From Lujinxingiaceae bacterium (GTDB lineage Bacteria > Myxococcota_A > Bradymonadia > Bradymonadales > Bradymonadaceae): a DNA stretch of 50,960 nt. A model generated the notes under the pieces. It had not been told where the DNA came from. It worked only from the letters and a program-made list of their open reading frames with translations, and did no database searches. The DNA is taken from assembly GCA_013697635.1 (NCBI GenBank), contig JACCWM010000177.1, positions 1-50,960 of the forward strand, written 5' to 3'. Made by a program: the position numbers and the translations under genes. Below, piece after piece: positions 9,444 to 17,311 of this stretch (its first letter is position 1; each line of letters starts with the position of its first letter).

Positions 9444-9732
9444 GCAAAATCTCGGTATGTATGCTTCAACCCTTGCAAGGGCTTTTGTATGCTCAAACAA
9501 CCAGGTCAAACACCCGACCTGAGGTCATTGTACCATCAGCAGGACAGTAACCAAGAAGATGGTTACGCTAGCCTCCACTTCAACACCGTCGGCAGGCACC
9601 CACATTCCCGCGCCTGGCCTCAAGCCTACCCCAGGGGAAAATAGGTTGCAAAGAGTGGCTGTTGGGGTAATCTGCCACGATCGGATTGACCCGATGCTAC
9701 GCAGGTGCCTTGCGTCAGGGAGCTGTTGGCCA
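9444..9732. promoter_or_regulatory. Divergent control region of protease and kinase genes
   Basis: About 290 bases with no convincing gene. Two inverted repeats are visible: a perfect 12-bp palindrome CCCTTGCAAGGG at 9470-9481, 27 bases upstream of the protease ATG, and GTAACC-8-GGTTAC at 9547-9566. Both are candidate operator sites. Flanking the first, TATGCT occurs on either side (around 9460 and 9487). A possible but weak promoter for the kinase is TTGCAA near 9653 with TAATCT 16 bases on. Confidence 0.35.
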
Positions 9733-10998
9733 ATGACCCGAATGCCCGAAGTAGGCGAGCTCGTCGATGACGTTTTTCGCATCGAGTCCAAACTCGATGC
9801 CGGAAACTTCGGCGCCGTCTACAAGGTCCACGACATCCTCGAAGATCGCACCATCGCGCTCAAGGTGCTCAAGCCCGGACCGCACGATGAGGCCGAGCTT
9901 CGTCAACGCTTCGAGCGCGAAGCGCGCCTGGTCTACAGCCTGCAGCACCCCCACGTCGTCGAGGTCTACTACTACGGCGAGACGGCGTCCGGGCTGCCCT
10001 ACATGGCCATGGAGTACCTCAACGGCACGGATCTGCGCAGTCTGATCCACCACAATGGCCCGCTCAACCCTGCCCTGATCCGACGCATCAGCCTCGAGGT
10101 GCTCTCGGCGCTCGAGACCGCCCACGAGATTGGCATCGTGCACCGCGATCTTAAGCCGGCGAACATCTACCTGGTCAACGATGGCGGCAAGGGCCACGTC
10201 AAGGTGCTCGATTTTGGGTTTGCCAAGGCGCTCGATGGTGAGAGCCAGGGTGAGATCACCAACGCCGGCACGCTGGTCGGAACGCCGGCCTACATGTCGC
10301 CCGAGCTCGTGCACAAGAAAAACGTCGGGCCACCGGCGGACTTGTACGCGATGGGCTTGATCATGGCCGAGATGATCATGGGCGAGAAACTGATCAAGAT
10401 TGAGAGCGTCTACGAGACCATTCTCTTTCAAGCCTCGCCCAAGAACATCAAGATGCCTGCCCCGGTGGCAAACAGCCTCTTTGCCCAGATCATCAACCGC
10501 TCGGTCGCAAAGGATCTGGCCGAGCGCTACAAATCGGCCACCGAGATCATCGAGGACCTCAAGCGCCTCGACATCCCCGGCGTCGGCCCGCTCTCAAACG
10601 GCGCGCCCAGCGAGTATGGCAACGCCGACATGAATGCGCGCACTCGCCCGCGCTCCACGGGCATGCCCTCGATCGAGGAGGTCGACCGCGCCCTGGGCCT
10701 CGATCCCGAAGATCCCATCGGCTATCCGCCAATCCACGACCACGATCTGCCCATGCAGTCTCGCCCGATGCACAGCATGGCCGAGGACGAGCCCACCTTT
10801 GACAGGCCTCCTGAGCGCCTATCGAGCCCGTCGGACTCCAATGCACGGCCCGAGGACAGCTTTATCATGGGCAATCTGGCCATTCCCGCCTCGAGCGCGC
10901 CAGCGAGCAACTCCGGGATGGGCGAGATATTCGTGGGCATCATCGTCGGCCTGGCGATTTTGAGCATCATTTTGGCCTTCATCATGCACTTGGGATGA
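9733..10998 (+). CDS. Hanks-type Ser/Thr protein kinase, C-terminal membrane anchor
   Basis: A 421-residue kinase; ATG 9733 is preceded by GGGAG at a good distance, and the frame upstream shows no family similarity. All core motifs are present: Gly-rich loop LDAGNFGAVYKV (residues ~21-32), ATP-lysine Lys44 in IALKVL, catalytic HRDLKPANI (Asp139), DFGFA (Asp160) and GTPAYMSPE. It should be active. The kinase domain ends near residue 280. A Pro/Asp/Ser-rich linker of about 115 residues leads to one hydrophobic segment (~397-418) and a three-residue tail. The kinase domain is thus cytoplasmic and tail-anchored, with no sensor domain outside. Divergent from the S41 protease and upstream of the propeller lipoprotein operon, though 294 bases separate them. 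Targets unknown. Confidence 0.9.
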   Translation: MTRMPEVGELVDDVFRIESKLDAGNFGAVYKVHDILEDRTIALKVLKPGPHDEAELRQRFEREARLVYSLQHPHVVEVYYYGETASGLPYMAMEYLNGTDLRSLIHHNGPLNPALIRRISLEVLSALETAHEIGIVHRDLKPANIYLVNDGGKGHVKVLDFGFAKALDGESQGEITNAGTLVGTPAYMSPELVHKKNVGPPADLYAMGLIMAEMIMGEKLIKIESVYETILFQASPKNIKMPAPVANSLFAQIINRSVAKDLAERYKSATEIIEDLKRLDIPGVGPLSNGAPSEYGNADMNARTRPRSTGMPSIEEVDRALGLDPEDPIGYPPIHDHDLPMQSRPMHSMAEDEPTFDRPPERLSSPSDSNARPEDSFIMGNLAIPASSAPASNSGMGEIFVGIIVGLAILSIILAFIMHLG

Positions 10999-11292: not shown

Positions 11293-13023
11293 ATGACGCA
11301 AAACCTCAAGCGCCCTTCCTCACTGCTCCTCTCCATGGCACTGGCTGCCTCTTTGCTGGTCGGCTCATCCGGCTGCGGAAGCGATGCGGGCAGCGATTAC
11401 GAGCCGGATCGCAACAACGCCACCAACAACAGCTCCAACAACACGAACAGCAACAACGACAACAACGCCGGCGAGGCCAACAACTCCAACAACTCCAACA
11501 ACCCCGACCCCTTCATCCCTGAGCAGGAGGAGTTCTTGGTGCGCGAGGTTGCGGCGACCGACAACCACGTCTTCGTTCCCAACAGCGATCCGGACAGCAA
11601 CACAGTGGCCTTGATCGACGGGCGCGACTTCAGCGTGCTGCCCCTTCGCGTTGGTCGCCAGCCCACGCAGGTGCGCGCCGCCCAGATCGAGGGTATCGGC
11701 TCGGTGGCCTATGTGCTTTGCGAAGGCTCCTCGGTGATCGCGCTGGTGCGCGCCGACATGAGCAGCGGCCTCGATCGTGGCCACGTCAACCTGTTGTCGG
11801 TGCCTCGCGAGGTCAACGCCTTGACGATGGCGCCCGACGGGCGCCACGCTCTGGCCTACATCGACCCGCGCCTGCCCCTCAACTCCGGTGCGAGCGTCGC
11901 CTCGTTGCAGACCCTGGCCTTGATTCGCCTGGGCAATCAGCCGAGCGAAGATCGCGTCTTCGAGCTCTCGGTGACGCGCCTGATCTCGAGCATCCAGTTT
12001 ACGAGCGACAGTCGCGAAGCCTTTGTCGTCGGGCGTGAGGGCGTCAACCGCATCGCGCTCTCGGAGATCATGGACGACGCGTTTGTCGCGCCGATCGGGC
12101 TCAACCTCTCCGATAGTATTTTCCCGCCCGACGATCAGGAGGTCGTCGTCAGCGCCGACGGCAGCTTCATGGTGGTTCGCACCAGCCAGTTCGCCGGCAT
12201 CGCCCTCTTCCGCCTTCCCGGCGCGCAGACGCCAGGCAGCGTGCAGGTCGTCGAGCTTTCGGCCATCCCGACCGACGTTGACCTGATCGAGCGCACGGAC
12301 TCGAGCGGCGCAGCGACGCGCACGATCATGGCGACGCTGCGCTCGCGTGAGCAGGTCGCATTGATCGACATAGACGCGCTCTTTGGCGGCGCCGAGGCCG
12401 AGGACGCGCTCACGCTGATCGACGTCAACGGCGCGCAAGCCGGCCTGGCGCGTCTGACCCCCGACGCCGACCAGGTGCTCATCTATTCGGGCCTGGTGGC
12501 CACGCCGCTGATGGGCGTGCTCGACCTCGAGAGCGGCGCGGTGCGAACCCACATGCTCCGAAACCAGATCCGCAGCCTCGCGATCTCCGAGGACAGCAAG
12601 TCGGCAGTGATCGTGCATCACAAGCAGGCCGGCACGATCGGCGCGGGCACCGATCCGCTGGAGGTCTTTCAGCGCAGCTACGGCATGACGATCTTCGACA
12701 TCGCCACAGGCTACAGCCGCCCGCTCGTGCTGCAAGGCGAGCCGACCGACATCGTCATGACGCGCACGCCCGACGGCCGCCCGATCGTCTACAGCATGCT
12801 CGTCTCCTCGGACCCGAGCAGCCAGGGCATCATGCGCGTCGACCTGACGAGCTTTCGAAGCGACTTCGTGCGCCTGGCTCGAAAACCCATCCAGCTTGGC
12901 ACCGTCGCCGGAAAGGTTTTCGTCAACCAGGACTCGCCGACCGGGCGCATCACCTTCTTTGATATCGAAACGCAGTCGCAGCGCACCGTCAGCGGCTACG
13001 AACTCAACGCCGGAATCGACTGA
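11293..13023 (+). CDS. Propeller-like lipoprotein 1
   Basis: A 576-residue predicted lipoprotein. A basic N-terminus and hydrophobic stretch end in a loose lipobox (VGSSGC, Cys28). A roughly 45-residue Asn/Ser tether (NNSNNTNSNN) follows. The rest is a chain of repeated beta-strand motifs such as NTVALIDGRDFSVLPLRVG and ALTMAPDGRHALAYIDP, as in YVTN/YncE-type seven-bladed propellers. Such proteins usually bind partners rather than catalyse. The C-terminus RTVSGYELNAGID is almost identical to that of the next gene, so the two are paralogues. The start is ATG 11293 with AGGA upstream; a TTG 51 bases earlier would break the signal peptide. The stop overlaps the next start (TGATG), indicating translational coupling. 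Function unknown; probably outer-membrane or surface exposed. Confidence 0.75.
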   Translation: MTQNLKRPSSLLLSMALAASLLVGSSGCGSDAGSDYEPDRNNATNNSSNNTNSNNDNNAGEANNSNNSNNPDPFIPEQEEFLVREVAATDNHVFVPNSDPDSNTVALIDGRDFSVLPLRVGRQPTQVRAAQIEGIGSVAYVLCEGSSVIALVRADMSSGLDRGHVNLLSVPREVNALTMAPDGRHALAYIDPRLPLNSGASVASLQTLALIRLGNQPSEDRVFELSVTRLISSIQFTSDSREAFVVGREGVNRIALSEIMDDAFVAPIGLNLSDSIFPPDDQEVVVSADGSFMVVRTSQFAGIALFRLPGAQTPGSVQVVELSAIPTDVDLIERTDSSGAATRTIMATLRSREQVALIDIDALFGGAEAEDALTLIDVNGAQAGLARLTPDADQVLIYSGLVATPLMGVLDLESGAVRTHMLRNQIRSLAISEDSKSAVIVHHKQAGTIGAGTDPLEVFQRSYGMTIFDIATGYSRPLVLQGEPTDIVMTRTPDGRPIVYSMLVSSDPSSQGIMRVDLTSFRSDFVRLARKPIQLGTVAGKVFVNQDSPTGRITFFDIETQSQRTVSGYELNAGID

Positions 13024-14948
13024 TGAAGACCTACAAACTCAGACTCAAACGCGCGACGCTGATTTGTGCCCTGGCGCTTTTGCCGGCCTGCGCTGACATG
13101 GGCGATCGCAGCTACGACTCACCAAGCGGCAGCAGTAATAATGGTAATAATAGCGATGGCTCGAACAACAGCAACAACGCTCCGTTTATCCCCGAGGATA
13201 AGGTCGAGTTCAGCTTCTCCAAGCCGGCGATTGTGGCCGAGACGATTTTCGTGGCCAACGAGACGCTCAATTCCGTGGCGGTCATCGACAGTCGCAACCT
13301 CTCGGTCACGACCGTGCTCGCCGGCTTTCGGCCAACGGCCGTGGTCGGCCCGGAGCCGGCCTTCGCCACAAGTAGCGCAGCGCGCGTGATGGCGCTCAAC
13401 GAGGGCAGCAACTCGGTGACGATCATCGATCCGGCAACGTTCGCCACGCGCACGGTCGCCGTGCTCCCCCATGCCAACGCGCTGGCCATCGACCCGTCGG
13501 GCCGCTACGGCGTGGCCTGGTACGACGACGCGCGCGCCCAGAGCGGCCAACGCGCCGGAGATCTCTCCTCGGTGAGCATCATCATGGGCGAGCGCTCGGT
13601 GAGCGTCGCCGTTGGCTTTCACGTGCGCCGCGTGCACTTCGACCGTACAGGCGAGCTCTTGCTCGTGCTCACCGACGACGGCATCAGCCGCATTGAGCTG
13701 GCATCGCTCGTCGCCGACAGCTTCGCGGCGCCCATTGCGATCGTCTCGCCCAATCTTCGCCAGATCAAGCCCGTCGATCTCGAGGTGGTGATCAGCCGCG
13801 ACGCCAAATATGCCGTCACGCGCACCACGGCCTGGAAGGGGCTGGTGTTGCTCGACATCGAGGCCCGCGAACAGCACCTGATCGCGCTCCCCGAGACGCC
13901 GACCGACATCGAATTCGTCGAGCGCGACGGCCTGGAGATTTTGGCCGTGCTGCGAAATCGCTCACAAATCGTGCGCGCCAGCGTGCCCCAGGGCCTGATC
14001 AACGCCGCCCTATGGTCGGCCGACAACGCTCTCCACACCCAGGTCGTCGGCTCGAGCCATGGCGAGGGCGACGTCGGTTTGAGCGATGCTGGCGACGCTG
14101 GCGACGCTGGCGACGACGTCGGGCAACTCGACACAGGCGCGAGCGACGACGCAGGTGCGAGCGACGACACAGGCGTTGAAGTAGATACGAGCATCGAGCC
14201 TGATGTTGGCGTCTTGGACGATGCCAGCGAAGGCGATGCCAGCGACGCAGCCGTCGATGACGATGCCACCAGCGAGCCCGGCCACTGGCCAGACCTCGAC
14301 GGCTTCAGCTACCTCGACATGATCGTGGCTGGCCTGGGTGCTGCGAGCATCTCGGCCGACGGGGCGAGCGCCCTGCTCTTTACCACGCTTGGCGAGGAGC
14401 GCCGCAGCGTGCTGCTTGGCCTCGAGGACAACTCCCAACGCGCGCTGATCTTTGAGAAGGGCATTCGCGGCGCGCTCTCCGACGAGCGCGGCAACACCTT
14501 CTTGGTCTTTCACTCCAAGAAGGACGGCCCGCTTCCGACCACGGCCACGCCCACCGACCCGGAGTACATCGCCAGAAGCTGGGGCGTCTCGATGCTCGAT
14601 GTCGCCACGGCCGCCACGCGGCTCGTGCTCACCCAACAAGAGCCTGGACCGACCACGCTCTGGGCCCCCGAGACCGGCGATGCGCGTGTCTTCATGGTCT
14701 TCAAGCAGCCCTCGCTGGTCAGCCAGATCCAGGACTCACACCGCGACGCGGTGGTGATCAATTTGCGTAGCTTTCGCACCGACGCCTTTCGCCTGCCCAG
14801 CCTGCCCGAGGGGCTGGGAGTCATCGCCTCGGCACGCAAGGTCTACATCAGCCAGACCCATCCGCAGGGACGCATGAGCTTTGTCAATGTCGACACCCTC
14901 GAGCGCCAGACCGTCACCGGCTACCAGCTCAACGCGGGAATCGAATAA
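13023..14948 (+). CDS. Propeller-like lipoprotein 2 with acidic loop insertion
   Basis: A 641-residue paralogue of the preceding lipoprotein. The signal peptide ends LLPAC (Cys23), followed by a Gly/Ser/Asn linker and the same FIPE(D/Q)xxEF entry. Propeller motifs include NSVAVIDSRNLSVTTVLAG and NSVTIIDPATFATRTVAV. Residues ~347-421 are an insertion absent from lipoprotein 1: an Asp/Ala/Gly/Thr tract (DAGDAGDAGDD, DDAGASDDTG) coded by GAC/GCT/GGC triplet repeats, falling between two predicted blades. The ending RQTVTGYQLNAGIE matches the paralogue. The start codon overlaps the previous stop. Probably co-anchored in the same membrane as lipoproteins 1 and 3; the acidic loop could bind divalent cations, which is inference only. 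Confidence 0.75.
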   Translation: MKTYKLRLKRATLICALALLPACADMGDRSYDSPSGSSNNGNNSDGSNNSNNAPFIPEDKVEFSFSKPAIVAETIFVANETLNSVAVIDSRNLSVTTVLAGFRPTAVVGPEPAFATSSAARVMALNEGSNSVTIIDPATFATRTVAVLPHANALAIDPSGRYGVAWYDDARAQSGQRAGDLSSVSIIMGERSVSVAVGFHVRRVHFDRTGELLLVLTDDGISRIELASLVADSFAAPIAIVSPNLRQIKPVDLEVVISRDAKYAVTRTTAWKGLVLLDIEAREQHLIALPETPTDIEFVERDGLEILAVLRNRSQIVRASVPQGLINAALWSADNALHTQVVGSSHGEGDVGLSDAGDAGDAGDDVGQLDTGASDDAGASDDTGVEVDTSIEPDVGVLDDASEGDASDAAVDDDATSEPGHWPDLDGFSYLDMIVAGLGAASISADGASALLFTTLGEERRSVLLGLEDNSQRALIFEKGIRGALSDERGNTFLVFHSKKDGPLPTTATPTDPEYIARSWGVSMLDVATAATRLVLTQQEPGPTTLWAPETGDARVFMVFKQPSLVSQIQDSHRDAVVINLRSFRTDAFRLPSLPEGLGVIASARKVYISQTHPQGRMSFVNVDTLERQTVTGYQLNAGIE

Positions 14949-14952
14949 GCCC

Positions 14953-14991
14953 ATGAAAAGAAACGCCTTTCAACCCAAGCGAGCGATGTAA
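14953..14991 (+). CDS. Possible 12-codon leader ORF
   Basis: An ATG at 14953 opens a basic 12-residue frame (MKRNAFQPKRAM). Its TAA stop overlaps the ATG of the next gene as TAATG (14989-14993). No clear ribosome site precedes it. It may couple translation of lipoprotein 3 to lipoprotein 2, or be chance. Confidence 0.25.
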   Translation: MKRNAFQPKRAM

Positions 14992-16595
14992 TGTTGATAC
15001 AAACGAAGAAATTATTGTTGGGTGCCGCAGCCGTCGCAGCGCTGACAGCAGCGTGTGGGCCGGACACCTCGAGTGCCTGGAAGCAGAACCTGCAGATCGG
15101 CACGCCGCTCGAGCTCAACGGAGATCTGGCCTTTCTAAACCGCAGCTTCGAGCAGGTGCACGTCGTGCGCTCAGGCATTCGCGACAACGCGCTCTTTGTC
15201 GATTCGCTTCGCCTCAATACGGGCAGCGAGCCGGGGCAAATCGCGCGCTCGAGAGACGAAAACACGCTTTTTGTCGTCAATGAAGGCGAGCGCACGCTGA
15301 GCGTCTTCGACATGCGAGGAGACGACGAGCCTGGCGTGCAAAAGGTCGCGCTTGGAAGCGCCTACGACCGCATCAGCGTCGATCCCGAGGGCCAGTTTGT
15401 GCTGCTCAGCTTTAGCGGCAACTCCTCAAAAAAGATCATCGCACGAAACCTCAACGAGCTTGGCATCGTCGATCTGCGCGCCGGCCTGCCTGAGCGCGCC
15501 GAGTTCGTCACGCTCTTTAGCCGCGCCCAGGATATCGTCTTCGCGCCGCCCTTTACCCTGGGCGGGCGCCCGCAGCGCATGGCAGCCGCACTCTCGCCAA
15601 GCGAGATCACGCTGATCGATCTCGAGGCCACCAACGAGTTCGACCGGCTGCGCAGCGTACCGCTGACGATAAGCCAGGCCGACCAGGTGCGAAACCCCGT
15701 GCAGGTCGTCTTCGACACCACGCCAAACGAGGCCGCGCCCGACACGATCAGCCTCTATGTATTGACCGACCGCGGTGAAGACATCACCCAGATCGTCATC
15801 CAGCCCAGCGTGCGCGAGGACGCGCTTCGCAAGTTCGATATCAGCGTCAACCAGTTGGCCGCCGGCCAGGCGCCCGTCAAGATGGCTGTGCTCGATTTGC
15901 CCGGCGTGGGCACGCGTCTGCTCGCCCTCGACGGCAGCCGCCCACGCTTTACCCTGGTCGACGTCACCAGTGGCGAGAGCGCCACCTTCGATCTGCCGAT
16001 CACTGCAGCGGCGAGCGACATGCTGGTCTTCAAGACCTTGCCTCCCGGCGGCGATCGCGTCGAAACGCGCGTGCTCGTCTACTCGACGCGCTCGCCGCTG
16101 GTGGCGATCATTCGCCCCGAGAGCATCGCCGTCTCCGGGGATACGCCCACGGCCGGCCAGACTATTCAAGCCATCCGCGCCAAAGAGGCGCCCCAGCGCA
16201 TCATCATGGACGGTGAGTTCGATCAGGACCGCGCCATCGCTTTTCACGCCGGCACCCAGGACGGCTTCACAGTGTTTAACCTTCGCACCAACCGAGCGAT
16301 CCCGATTCAGGGTTACGGGCTCTCGGATCTTGTTTTTGACGGCTCCGTCGGCTACGGCGTCTTTCGCGATTCGCCACACTTCGTGCGCTTCGATCTCGAG
16401 ACGGGCCACCCGACGGTCTTTGATCTACCGGCGCCGGGGCGTCGTATCTTTGCCCATGACACAACCTTGCTCGTGCAGCACGCCGATGCCTCGGGCAGCT
16501 TCACCGTGCTCGACGCCAACGAGCCTGTGCCAGCAAAGGCTCGCCACTTCGAGAACGTCTTCTTCAACGGTCTTTTTCAGCAGGTGCTGCCATGA
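14991..16595 (+). CDS. Propeller-like lipoprotein 3
   Basis: A 534-residue predicted lipoprotein with signal peptide MLIQTKKLLLGAAAVAALTA and Cys22 in TAACG. It lacks the Asn-rich tether of the two upstream paralogues and is more distant from them. It shares the same strand pattern (ENTLFVVNEGERTLSVFDMR, FVLLSFSGNSSKK) and a late IPIQGYGLSDL segment that recalls the GYELNAG ending. Predicted beta-propeller with no catalytic motif seen. The 42-base gap after lipoprotein 2 contains a 12-codon frame whose stop overlaps this start. The stop of this gene overlaps the next start by ATGA, so it is coupled to the outer-membrane barrel gene. Confidence 0.7.
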   Translation: MLIQTKKLLLGAAAVAALTAACGPDTSSAWKQNLQIGTPLELNGDLAFLNRSFEQVHVVRSGIRDNALFVDSLRLNTGSEPGQIARSRDENTLFVVNEGERTLSVFDMRGDDEPGVQKVALGSAYDRISVDPEGQFVLLSFSGNSSKKIIARNLNELGIVDLRAGLPERAEFVTLFSRAQDIVFAPPFTLGGRPQRMAAALSPSEITLIDLEATNEFDRLRSVPLTISQADQVRNPVQVVFDTTPNEAAPDTISLYVLTDRGEDITQIVIQPSVREDALRKFDISVNQLAAGQAPVKMAVLDLPGVGTRLLALDGSRPRFTLVDVTSGESATFDLPITAAASDMLVFKTLPPGGDRVETRVLVYSTRSPLVAIIRPESIAVSGDTPTAGQTIQAIRAKEAPQRIIMDGEFDQDRAIAFHAGTQDGFTVFNLRTNRAIPIQGYGLSDLVFDGSVGYGVFRDSPHFVRFDLETGHPTVFDLPAPGRRIFAHDTTLLVQHADASGSFTVLDANEPVPAKARHFENVFFNGLFQQVLP

Positions 16596-17311
16596 AGCCA
16601 TCCAATCGCCAACGATTCGCTAGCCTGCTCGTCGCAGCGAGCGTGCTCGGCGCGGCGCAAGCCCCGGCAGTGGCCCATGCGGGCGAGTTGATCGTCGAAG
16701 GCCGCATCAATACGACCTTCATCACCGACACCAGCTTTGACGCGCTCTCGAATGAAAACCACGTCGTCGGCACCTGGTTGGGCGTGGGCTACGATCTGGG
16801 CGCCTACGTCTTGCCCGGCTTTCGCGCCTACGTCTTGCTCGACAGCACGGGCCTGAGCCGCGAGCGCTTCAACGGCGCCTTGAGCATGGATTGGTCACGC
16901 CAGGTGTTGATGGCCGCTGCCGATTATGGCCCCGATTTGTGGGGCTTCTTTCGCCCATCGGTGCGCGTTGGAGCGGGCTGGGCTACGCAGTCGCTGACAC
17001 TTGCCTCGGCCAATCCGAGCGTCCACGACCGCACCCACGACCTGGCGGCGACGGCTGCGCTAGGCTTTGAGCTCTACGTACCCTACACCAACGATCCGGC
17101 AGGGCCTCCGCTGTTCAACACGATAACCTTCGGGCTCGGCGGCCACTTCGGTTACATGGCCCAGACGACGGCCAACTTCAATGATCTGCGCGCCGACGAC
17201 GATGCCTACGCCGACTCCGATCCCTGGCAGCGCGCCGGCTCAAACTTCGGCGAGCTCGACATCGACGGCCTGTACTGGAACCTGGGACTGGTCGTGCGCT
17301 TCTTGTTGTAG
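16592..17311 (+). CDS. Small outer-membrane beta-barrel protein
   Basis: A 239-residue protein with a cleavable signal peptide (basic start, hydrophobic core, cleavage near AVAHA-GE). The mature part alternates polar and hydrophobic residues with aromatic girdles (GVGYDLGAYVLPGFRAYVLL, VRVGAGWATQSLTL, ITFGLGGHFGYMA) and ends in YWNLGLVVRFLL. This fits an 8- to 10-stranded barrel, although the last residue is Leu rather than the usual Phe. It is the last gene of the operon, translationally coupled to lipoprotein 3. A porin-like channel or an anchor/translocator for the lipoproteins are both possible; I cannot decide. A weak hairpin (GCTCTT-12-AAGAGC, 17312-17335) follows. Confidence 0.65.
   Translation: MKPSNRQRFASLLVAASVLGAAQAPAVAHAGELIVEGRINTTFITDTSFDALSNENHVVGTWLGVGYDLGAYVLPGFRAYVLLDSTGLSRERFNGALSMDWSRQVLMAAADYGPDLWGFFRPSVRVGAGWATQSLTLASANPSVHDRTHDLAATAALGFELYVPYTNDPAGPPLFNTITFGLGGHFGYMAQTTANFNDLRADDDAYADSDPWQRAGSNFGELDIDGLYWNLGLVVRFLL

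Follow-up and report, generated by a model that had tools for sequence, protein, structure and literature searches.

The window analysed here, a stretch of DNA of 50,960 nucleotides, contains four genes (A to D) encoded on the same strand, and the open reading frames confirmed the coordinates assigned to them in the initial annotation. The genes and their features are as follows.

11293..13023, + strand: gene A, predicted propeller lipoprotein, 576 aa (open reading frame; AlphaFold2; homologs phylum-wide)
11374..11376, + strand: lipid-attachment Cys28 of A in GSSGC, Gly at +2 (sequence)
11377..11526, + strand: Asn/Ser/Asp-rich tether of A, from lipid anchor to first blade (sequence; poorly conserved in the alignment)
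12985..13020, + strand: C-terminal signature of A, TVSGYELNAGID, after the last strand of blade 10 (sequence, AlphaFold2)
13021..13025, + strand: A/B junction TGATG, 1-base overlap (sequence)
13023..14948, + strand: gene B, predicted propeller lipoprotein, 641 aa, paralog of A (open reading frame; gene tree)
14064..14282, + strand: acidic, length-variable low-complexity insert in B (sequence, alignment)
14910..14945, + strand: C-terminal signature of B, TVTGYQLNAGIE (sequence, alignment)
14953..14991, + strand: 12-codon open reading frame MKRNAFQPKRAM, its TAA overlapping the ATG of C (sequence)
14991..16595, + strand: gene C, predicted lipoprotein of a second propeller lineage, 534 aa (profile, tree)
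15054..15056, + strand: lipid-attachment Cys22 of C in TAAC, Gly at +2 (sequence)
16592..16595, + strand: C/D junction ATGA, 4-base overlap (sequence)
16592..17311, + strand: gene D, predicted outer-membrane barrel, 239 aa (AlphaFold2, Foldseek, sub-threshold Pfam match in relatives)
within 16592..17311, + strand: layout of D, signal peptide and eight strands at residues 32-238 (AlphaFold2)

Two of the gene junctions described earlier, TGATG between A and B (13021-13025) and ATGA between C and D (16592-16595), are present. The TAATG assigned to the B/C junction (14989-14993) was misread, since its TAA is the stop codon of the 12-codon open reading frame and not that of B. The stop codon of B ends at 14948 and the ATG of C is located at 14991, leaving a gap of 42 bases; in the relatives L026, L028, L031 and L033-L036 the open reading frames of B and C overlap by 4 bases. 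The 12-codon open reading frame MKRNAFQPKRAM might be a translational-coupling leader or the remnant of an older start. The insert in B (14064-14282) is Asp/Gly-, Asp/Met- or Pro/Glu-rich depending on the relative and is absent in Lujinxingia. The gene just upstream of the module (9559-10998) codes for a Ser/Thr protein kinase that carries a hydrophobic segment at its C-terminal end. Promoter and Rfam scans revealed nothing relevant, and a genome search showed that the module is present in single copy in the window's own genome.

The prediction of three lipoproteins held, with lipoboxes visible in A, B (LPAC, Cys23) and C; their signal peptides end in these lipoboxes, and D carries an ordinary signal peptide. 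With signal peptide and lipobox cysteine, A, B and C qualify by sequence as bacterial lipoproteins, and a lipobox is likewise present in 84/102 full-length A-type and 64/72 full-length C-type open reading frames. In Myxococcus xanthus, Lys at position +2 is an inner-membrane signal and Ala at +7 a matrix signal for lipoprotein sorting (PMC3222651). The residues at +2 are Gly, Ala and Gly in A, B and C of the window and those at +7 are Ser, Arg and Ser, and Lys at +2 occurs in only one of the 84 A-type and one of the 64 C-type proteins. Since both signals are absent, A, B and C are expected to be outer-membrane lipoproteins by the M. xanthus rules, which are not proven for Bradymonadales. The distance from the lipid to the first strand of A-type proteins has a median of 58 residues (53 measurable proteins); for C, measurement of the tether by regular expression was unreliable. 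Display of the lipoproteins on the cell surface is possible.

None of the four proteins matches a Pfam family above the curated cutoff, and the same is true for their relatives save for a low-complexity collagen-type match. Whole-protein scores for Lactonase, YNCE, Cytochrom_D1 and PQQ_ABC_repeats did not exceed the curated cutoffs, and in NCBIfam the one model exceeded was the generic YVTN repeat TIGR02276, against which B scored 31.4 bits (cutoff 27.85). A profile search of the PDB returned 1L0Q, the YVTN propeller from a surface-layer protein of an archaeon, as best match for both A/B (E 4.8e-10) and C (E 4.4e-11). AlphaFold2 modelling of residues 66-576 of A (20 sequences; pLDDT 88.4, pTM 0.85) yielded 38 called strands, which we grouped into ten four-stranded blades. 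These would form a single ring or possibly two five-bladed rings. The strands of A, the TIGR02276 match in B and the 1L0Q profile match together identify A, B and C as YVTN-type beta-propellers. The propeller pattern noted earlier in all three lipoproteins was thus borne out for A by the model and for C by profile homology, and for B through its paralogy with A; the propeller folds of B and C are predicted from homology to A.

Using the A model, Foldseek matched hundreds of propellers with low TM scores of about 0.3, consistent with a different blade number. Global superposition of A with 1L0Q is also poor (TM 0.32), which is consistent with more blades in A; 1L0Q differs further in carrying PKD domains. 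The ten-bladed propeller of Vps10p/sortilin resembles A in size only; these proteins are Asp-box membrane receptors of eukaryotes (PMC9356209) and are absent from the top 50 Foldseek matches of A. Conservation scores in the propeller are 0.37 for inter-blade loops and 0.25-0.31 for other loops, which does not single out one face. Model confidence drops at the C-terminal signature, just past blade 10.

The fourth protein had been described as a small barrel, and the AlphaFold2 model of D agrees: it is an eight-stranded barrel, with most strands at about pLDDT 90. Its nearest folds by Foldseek are OmpA, Ail, OmpX and OmpW, and the C-terminal residue of most D-type proteins is Phe or another hydrophobic residue; by strands, fold matches and C-terminal residue D is an eight-stranded OmpA-like barrel. 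The Pfam family OMP_b-brl is matched, below its cutoff, in 8/12 relatives. D differs from OmpA, OmpX and Ail in sequence (about 9-15% identity), in having no periplasmic peptidoglycan-binding domain and in being tied to C. The long loop that joins strands 7 and 8 of D was considered as a conserved surface contact and dropped, conservation there being no more than average.

A and B are full-length paralogs with about 31% identity in pairwise comparison. Pairwise BLAST of C against A or B found no similarity, and profile comparison showed that C is homologous to A/B (hhalign probability 97%, E 3.6e-11). The near-identical C-terminal signatures of A and B reported earlier (TVSGYELNAGID and TVTGYQLNAGIE) recur across A-type proteins: the motif [TS][GSA][YF]xL[NGSA] was found 8-13 residues from the end in 76/79 A-type proteins with a complete C-terminus and is thus not a chance resemblance. 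Since an iterated profile merged the A and C types, separate clean profiles and a gene tree were used instead. In this tree of 70 propellers, all 34 propellers encoded directly before D fall into one clade, apart from 35 of the 36 others (support 0.998). The exception is a propeller from L157, a short contig lacking D, on which position gives no label. The single clade indicates that the C type and the A/B type diverged before the sampled lineages did, and its topology argues that an ancient duplication gave rise to both types and that they have stayed together ever since. Within the family, A and B of the window come out as sister groups (support 0.845), so the tree places the A/B duplication as a local, lineage-specific one.

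The phylum searched was that of Bradymonadales, presumably Myxococcota, a phylum of predatory bacteria, to judge by the named relatives (Bradymonadaceae, Lujinxingia and 'Myxococcales' MAGs) and by GTDB usage. Loci were selected through A or C and in no case through D, so the presence of D in them is an independent result. C was found in 14/21 genomes of the family, and wherever the contig was long enough the fetched family loci contain A-B-C-D in the same order, with different flanks. The genes are absent from some genomes of the same family, for instance from G004 (93% complete), which indicates a dispensable function. A search of 379 genomes of the phylum, in which three candidates per genome were scored, returned A-type matches in at least 157 genomes and C-type matches in at least 92, and 67 further loci were fetched for comparison of neighbourhoods.

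Among 80 loci with hits the order was A-C-D in 36, A-A-C-D in 22 and C-D-A in nine, with a few variants. The genes thus stay together in relatives across the phylum. The gene counts do not show the equal stoichiometry once proposed: many genomes contain one A-type gene and others two, and the A:C gene ratio varies accordingly. A C-type propeller gene lies directly upstream of a D-type barrel gene in 73/80 loci; this count includes about 14 loci whose pre-D propeller gave a higher score with the A/B profile and was assigned to C by position, a procedure supported by the gene tree. In 44 of these 73 pairs an in-frame start gives the 4-base ATGA overlap. Twenty loci had been picked by A alone: a second propeller was present in 17, all of which also contain D (iterated D profile), and of the remaining three, two are cut off by a contig end.

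All-against-all comparison of neighbours revealed, among the matches listed, no other family common beyond single lineages except kinases. Widespread Ser/Thr kinases, homologous to the one upstream of the module in the window, are encoded near the module at varying positions in at least 13 fetched loci and probably represent a common family rather than a part of the module. A-type genes with neither C nor D nearby (L164, 8564-10126; L181, 8495-10042) suggest lone paralogs in some genomes. In two distant genomes Cys-rich repeat proteins of the CTADSCDTKTGTC type adjoin the module (L125, 2-6478; L142, 11733-13205); these could be surface proteins. Scanning named genomes with the A profile returned ten loci, all from Bradymonadales-type MAGs or Lujinxingia and some on contigs already retrieved in the family search; when the C protein by itself was used as query against named genomes no relative came up, and a plasmid search with A gave no match.

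Since the gene sets adjoin right across Myxococcota, the four genes probably build one cell-envelope complex that has not been described, and gene linkage together with the predicted folds makes a physical complex likelier than the initial annotation could claim. We infer a complex at the outer membrane in which D would be inserted as a narrow eight-stranded barrel, serving as a protein anchor and not as a channel. C, which shares a translational unit with D, would be its obligate partner. A and the duplicate B, whose flexible tethers are longer, would serve as propeller-tipped arms binding a ligand, a matrix component or a partner cell, modelled on other propeller lipoproteins that dock on barrels; the recognition role is suggested by such proteins as BtuG (PMC10404256). 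Their GYxLN tail, just past the last blade, might close the ring or dock to a partner. For this full arrangement, with D anchoring C and with A and B as tethered arms, we see about an even chance.

The main rival is that the propellers face the periplasm and serve as a scaffold for envelope assembly or connect other machinery with the outer membrane, as in BamB/BamA or CglC/GltA/GltB. A periplasmic orientation is common among outer-membrane lipoproteins, and D belongs to the OmpA-type barrels; CglC of M. xanthus is periplasm-facing and has been proposed to help integrate the OmpA-like barrels GltB and GltA (PMC4488436). However, the A-type tether, with its median of 58 residues, is longer than a periplasmic partner seems to need, and among the matches listed no periplasmic or inner-membrane gene is conserved beside the module; we therefore consider this arrangement a serious possibility, though an unlikely one. 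That the four proteins are merely co-expressed and make no contact with one another appears improbable. Operons often hold functionally linked proteins that do not interact, and a conserved operon can reflect co-regulation alone, but the adjacency and 4-base coupling of C and D persist while the position of A changes (A-C-D vs C-D-A), which favours a C-D pair over co-expression. Membrane-anchored enzymes of the lactonase, PQQ or cytochrome type are very doubtful, since the weak sub-threshold matches to Lactonase, PQQ_ABC_repeats and Cytochrom_D1 lie far below the family cutoffs and extend over no more than one or two blades, which any propeller would be expected to give, and conserved columns of the A, B and C alignments contain no CxxCH haem motif. 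Export of the lipoproteins to the surface by D, which the initial annotation had considered and which the adjacent genes for candidate cargo and barrel would suit if D were a small Slam/type 11 secretion barrel, can hardly be upheld, because D has 239 residues, eight strands and no extra domain, and to our knowledge eight-stranded barrels of the OmpA/OmpX/Ail class have no protein-sized pore; known lipoprotein exporters (Slam/T11SS) have much larger barrels with a TPR periplasmic domain.

The proposed outer-membrane complex resembles BtuG-BtuB of Bacteroides, in which a lipoprotein with a beta-propeller is seated on an outer-membrane barrel and both come from one locus. The BtuG propeller, however, is seven-bladed and its partner BtuB a TonB-dependent transporter (PMC10404256), whereas the module described here combines an eight-stranded barrel with ten predicted blades and two propeller lineages; among the matches listed the eight-stranded barrel is the only barrel in the conserved module, with no TonB-dependent transporter. 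The GltA/GltB/CglC proteins of M. xanthus gliding likewise join OmpA-type barrels and an outer-membrane lipoprotein in one gene cluster, but CglC is reported to have no known domains, GltC is a TPR protein and no propellers were reported (PMC4488436); D was set beside GltA and GltB by barrel type. Searches of the open-access literature returned no description of propeller lipoproteins in Myxococcota or Bradymonadales and no system of this make-up, in agreement with the earlier remark that none was known.

Much of outer-membrane biology depends on complexes of lipoproteins and barrels, and myxobacteria serve as model organisms for behaviour that requires contact. A more far-reaching reading, which we put forward as speculation and consider rather unlikely, is a phylum-specific outer-membrane machine or receptor with no counterpart in other bacteria described so far. 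It would combine two ancient lineages of ten-bladed propeller lipoproteins with an eight-stranded barrel dedicated to them, and would function in the recognition of surfaces or in the predatory or social behaviour of Myxococcota. Being kept together across much of the phylum and built from proteins that belong to no named family, with no paper on it in the literature searched, the three-part module makes a strong candidate for an envelope complex that is new to the literature.
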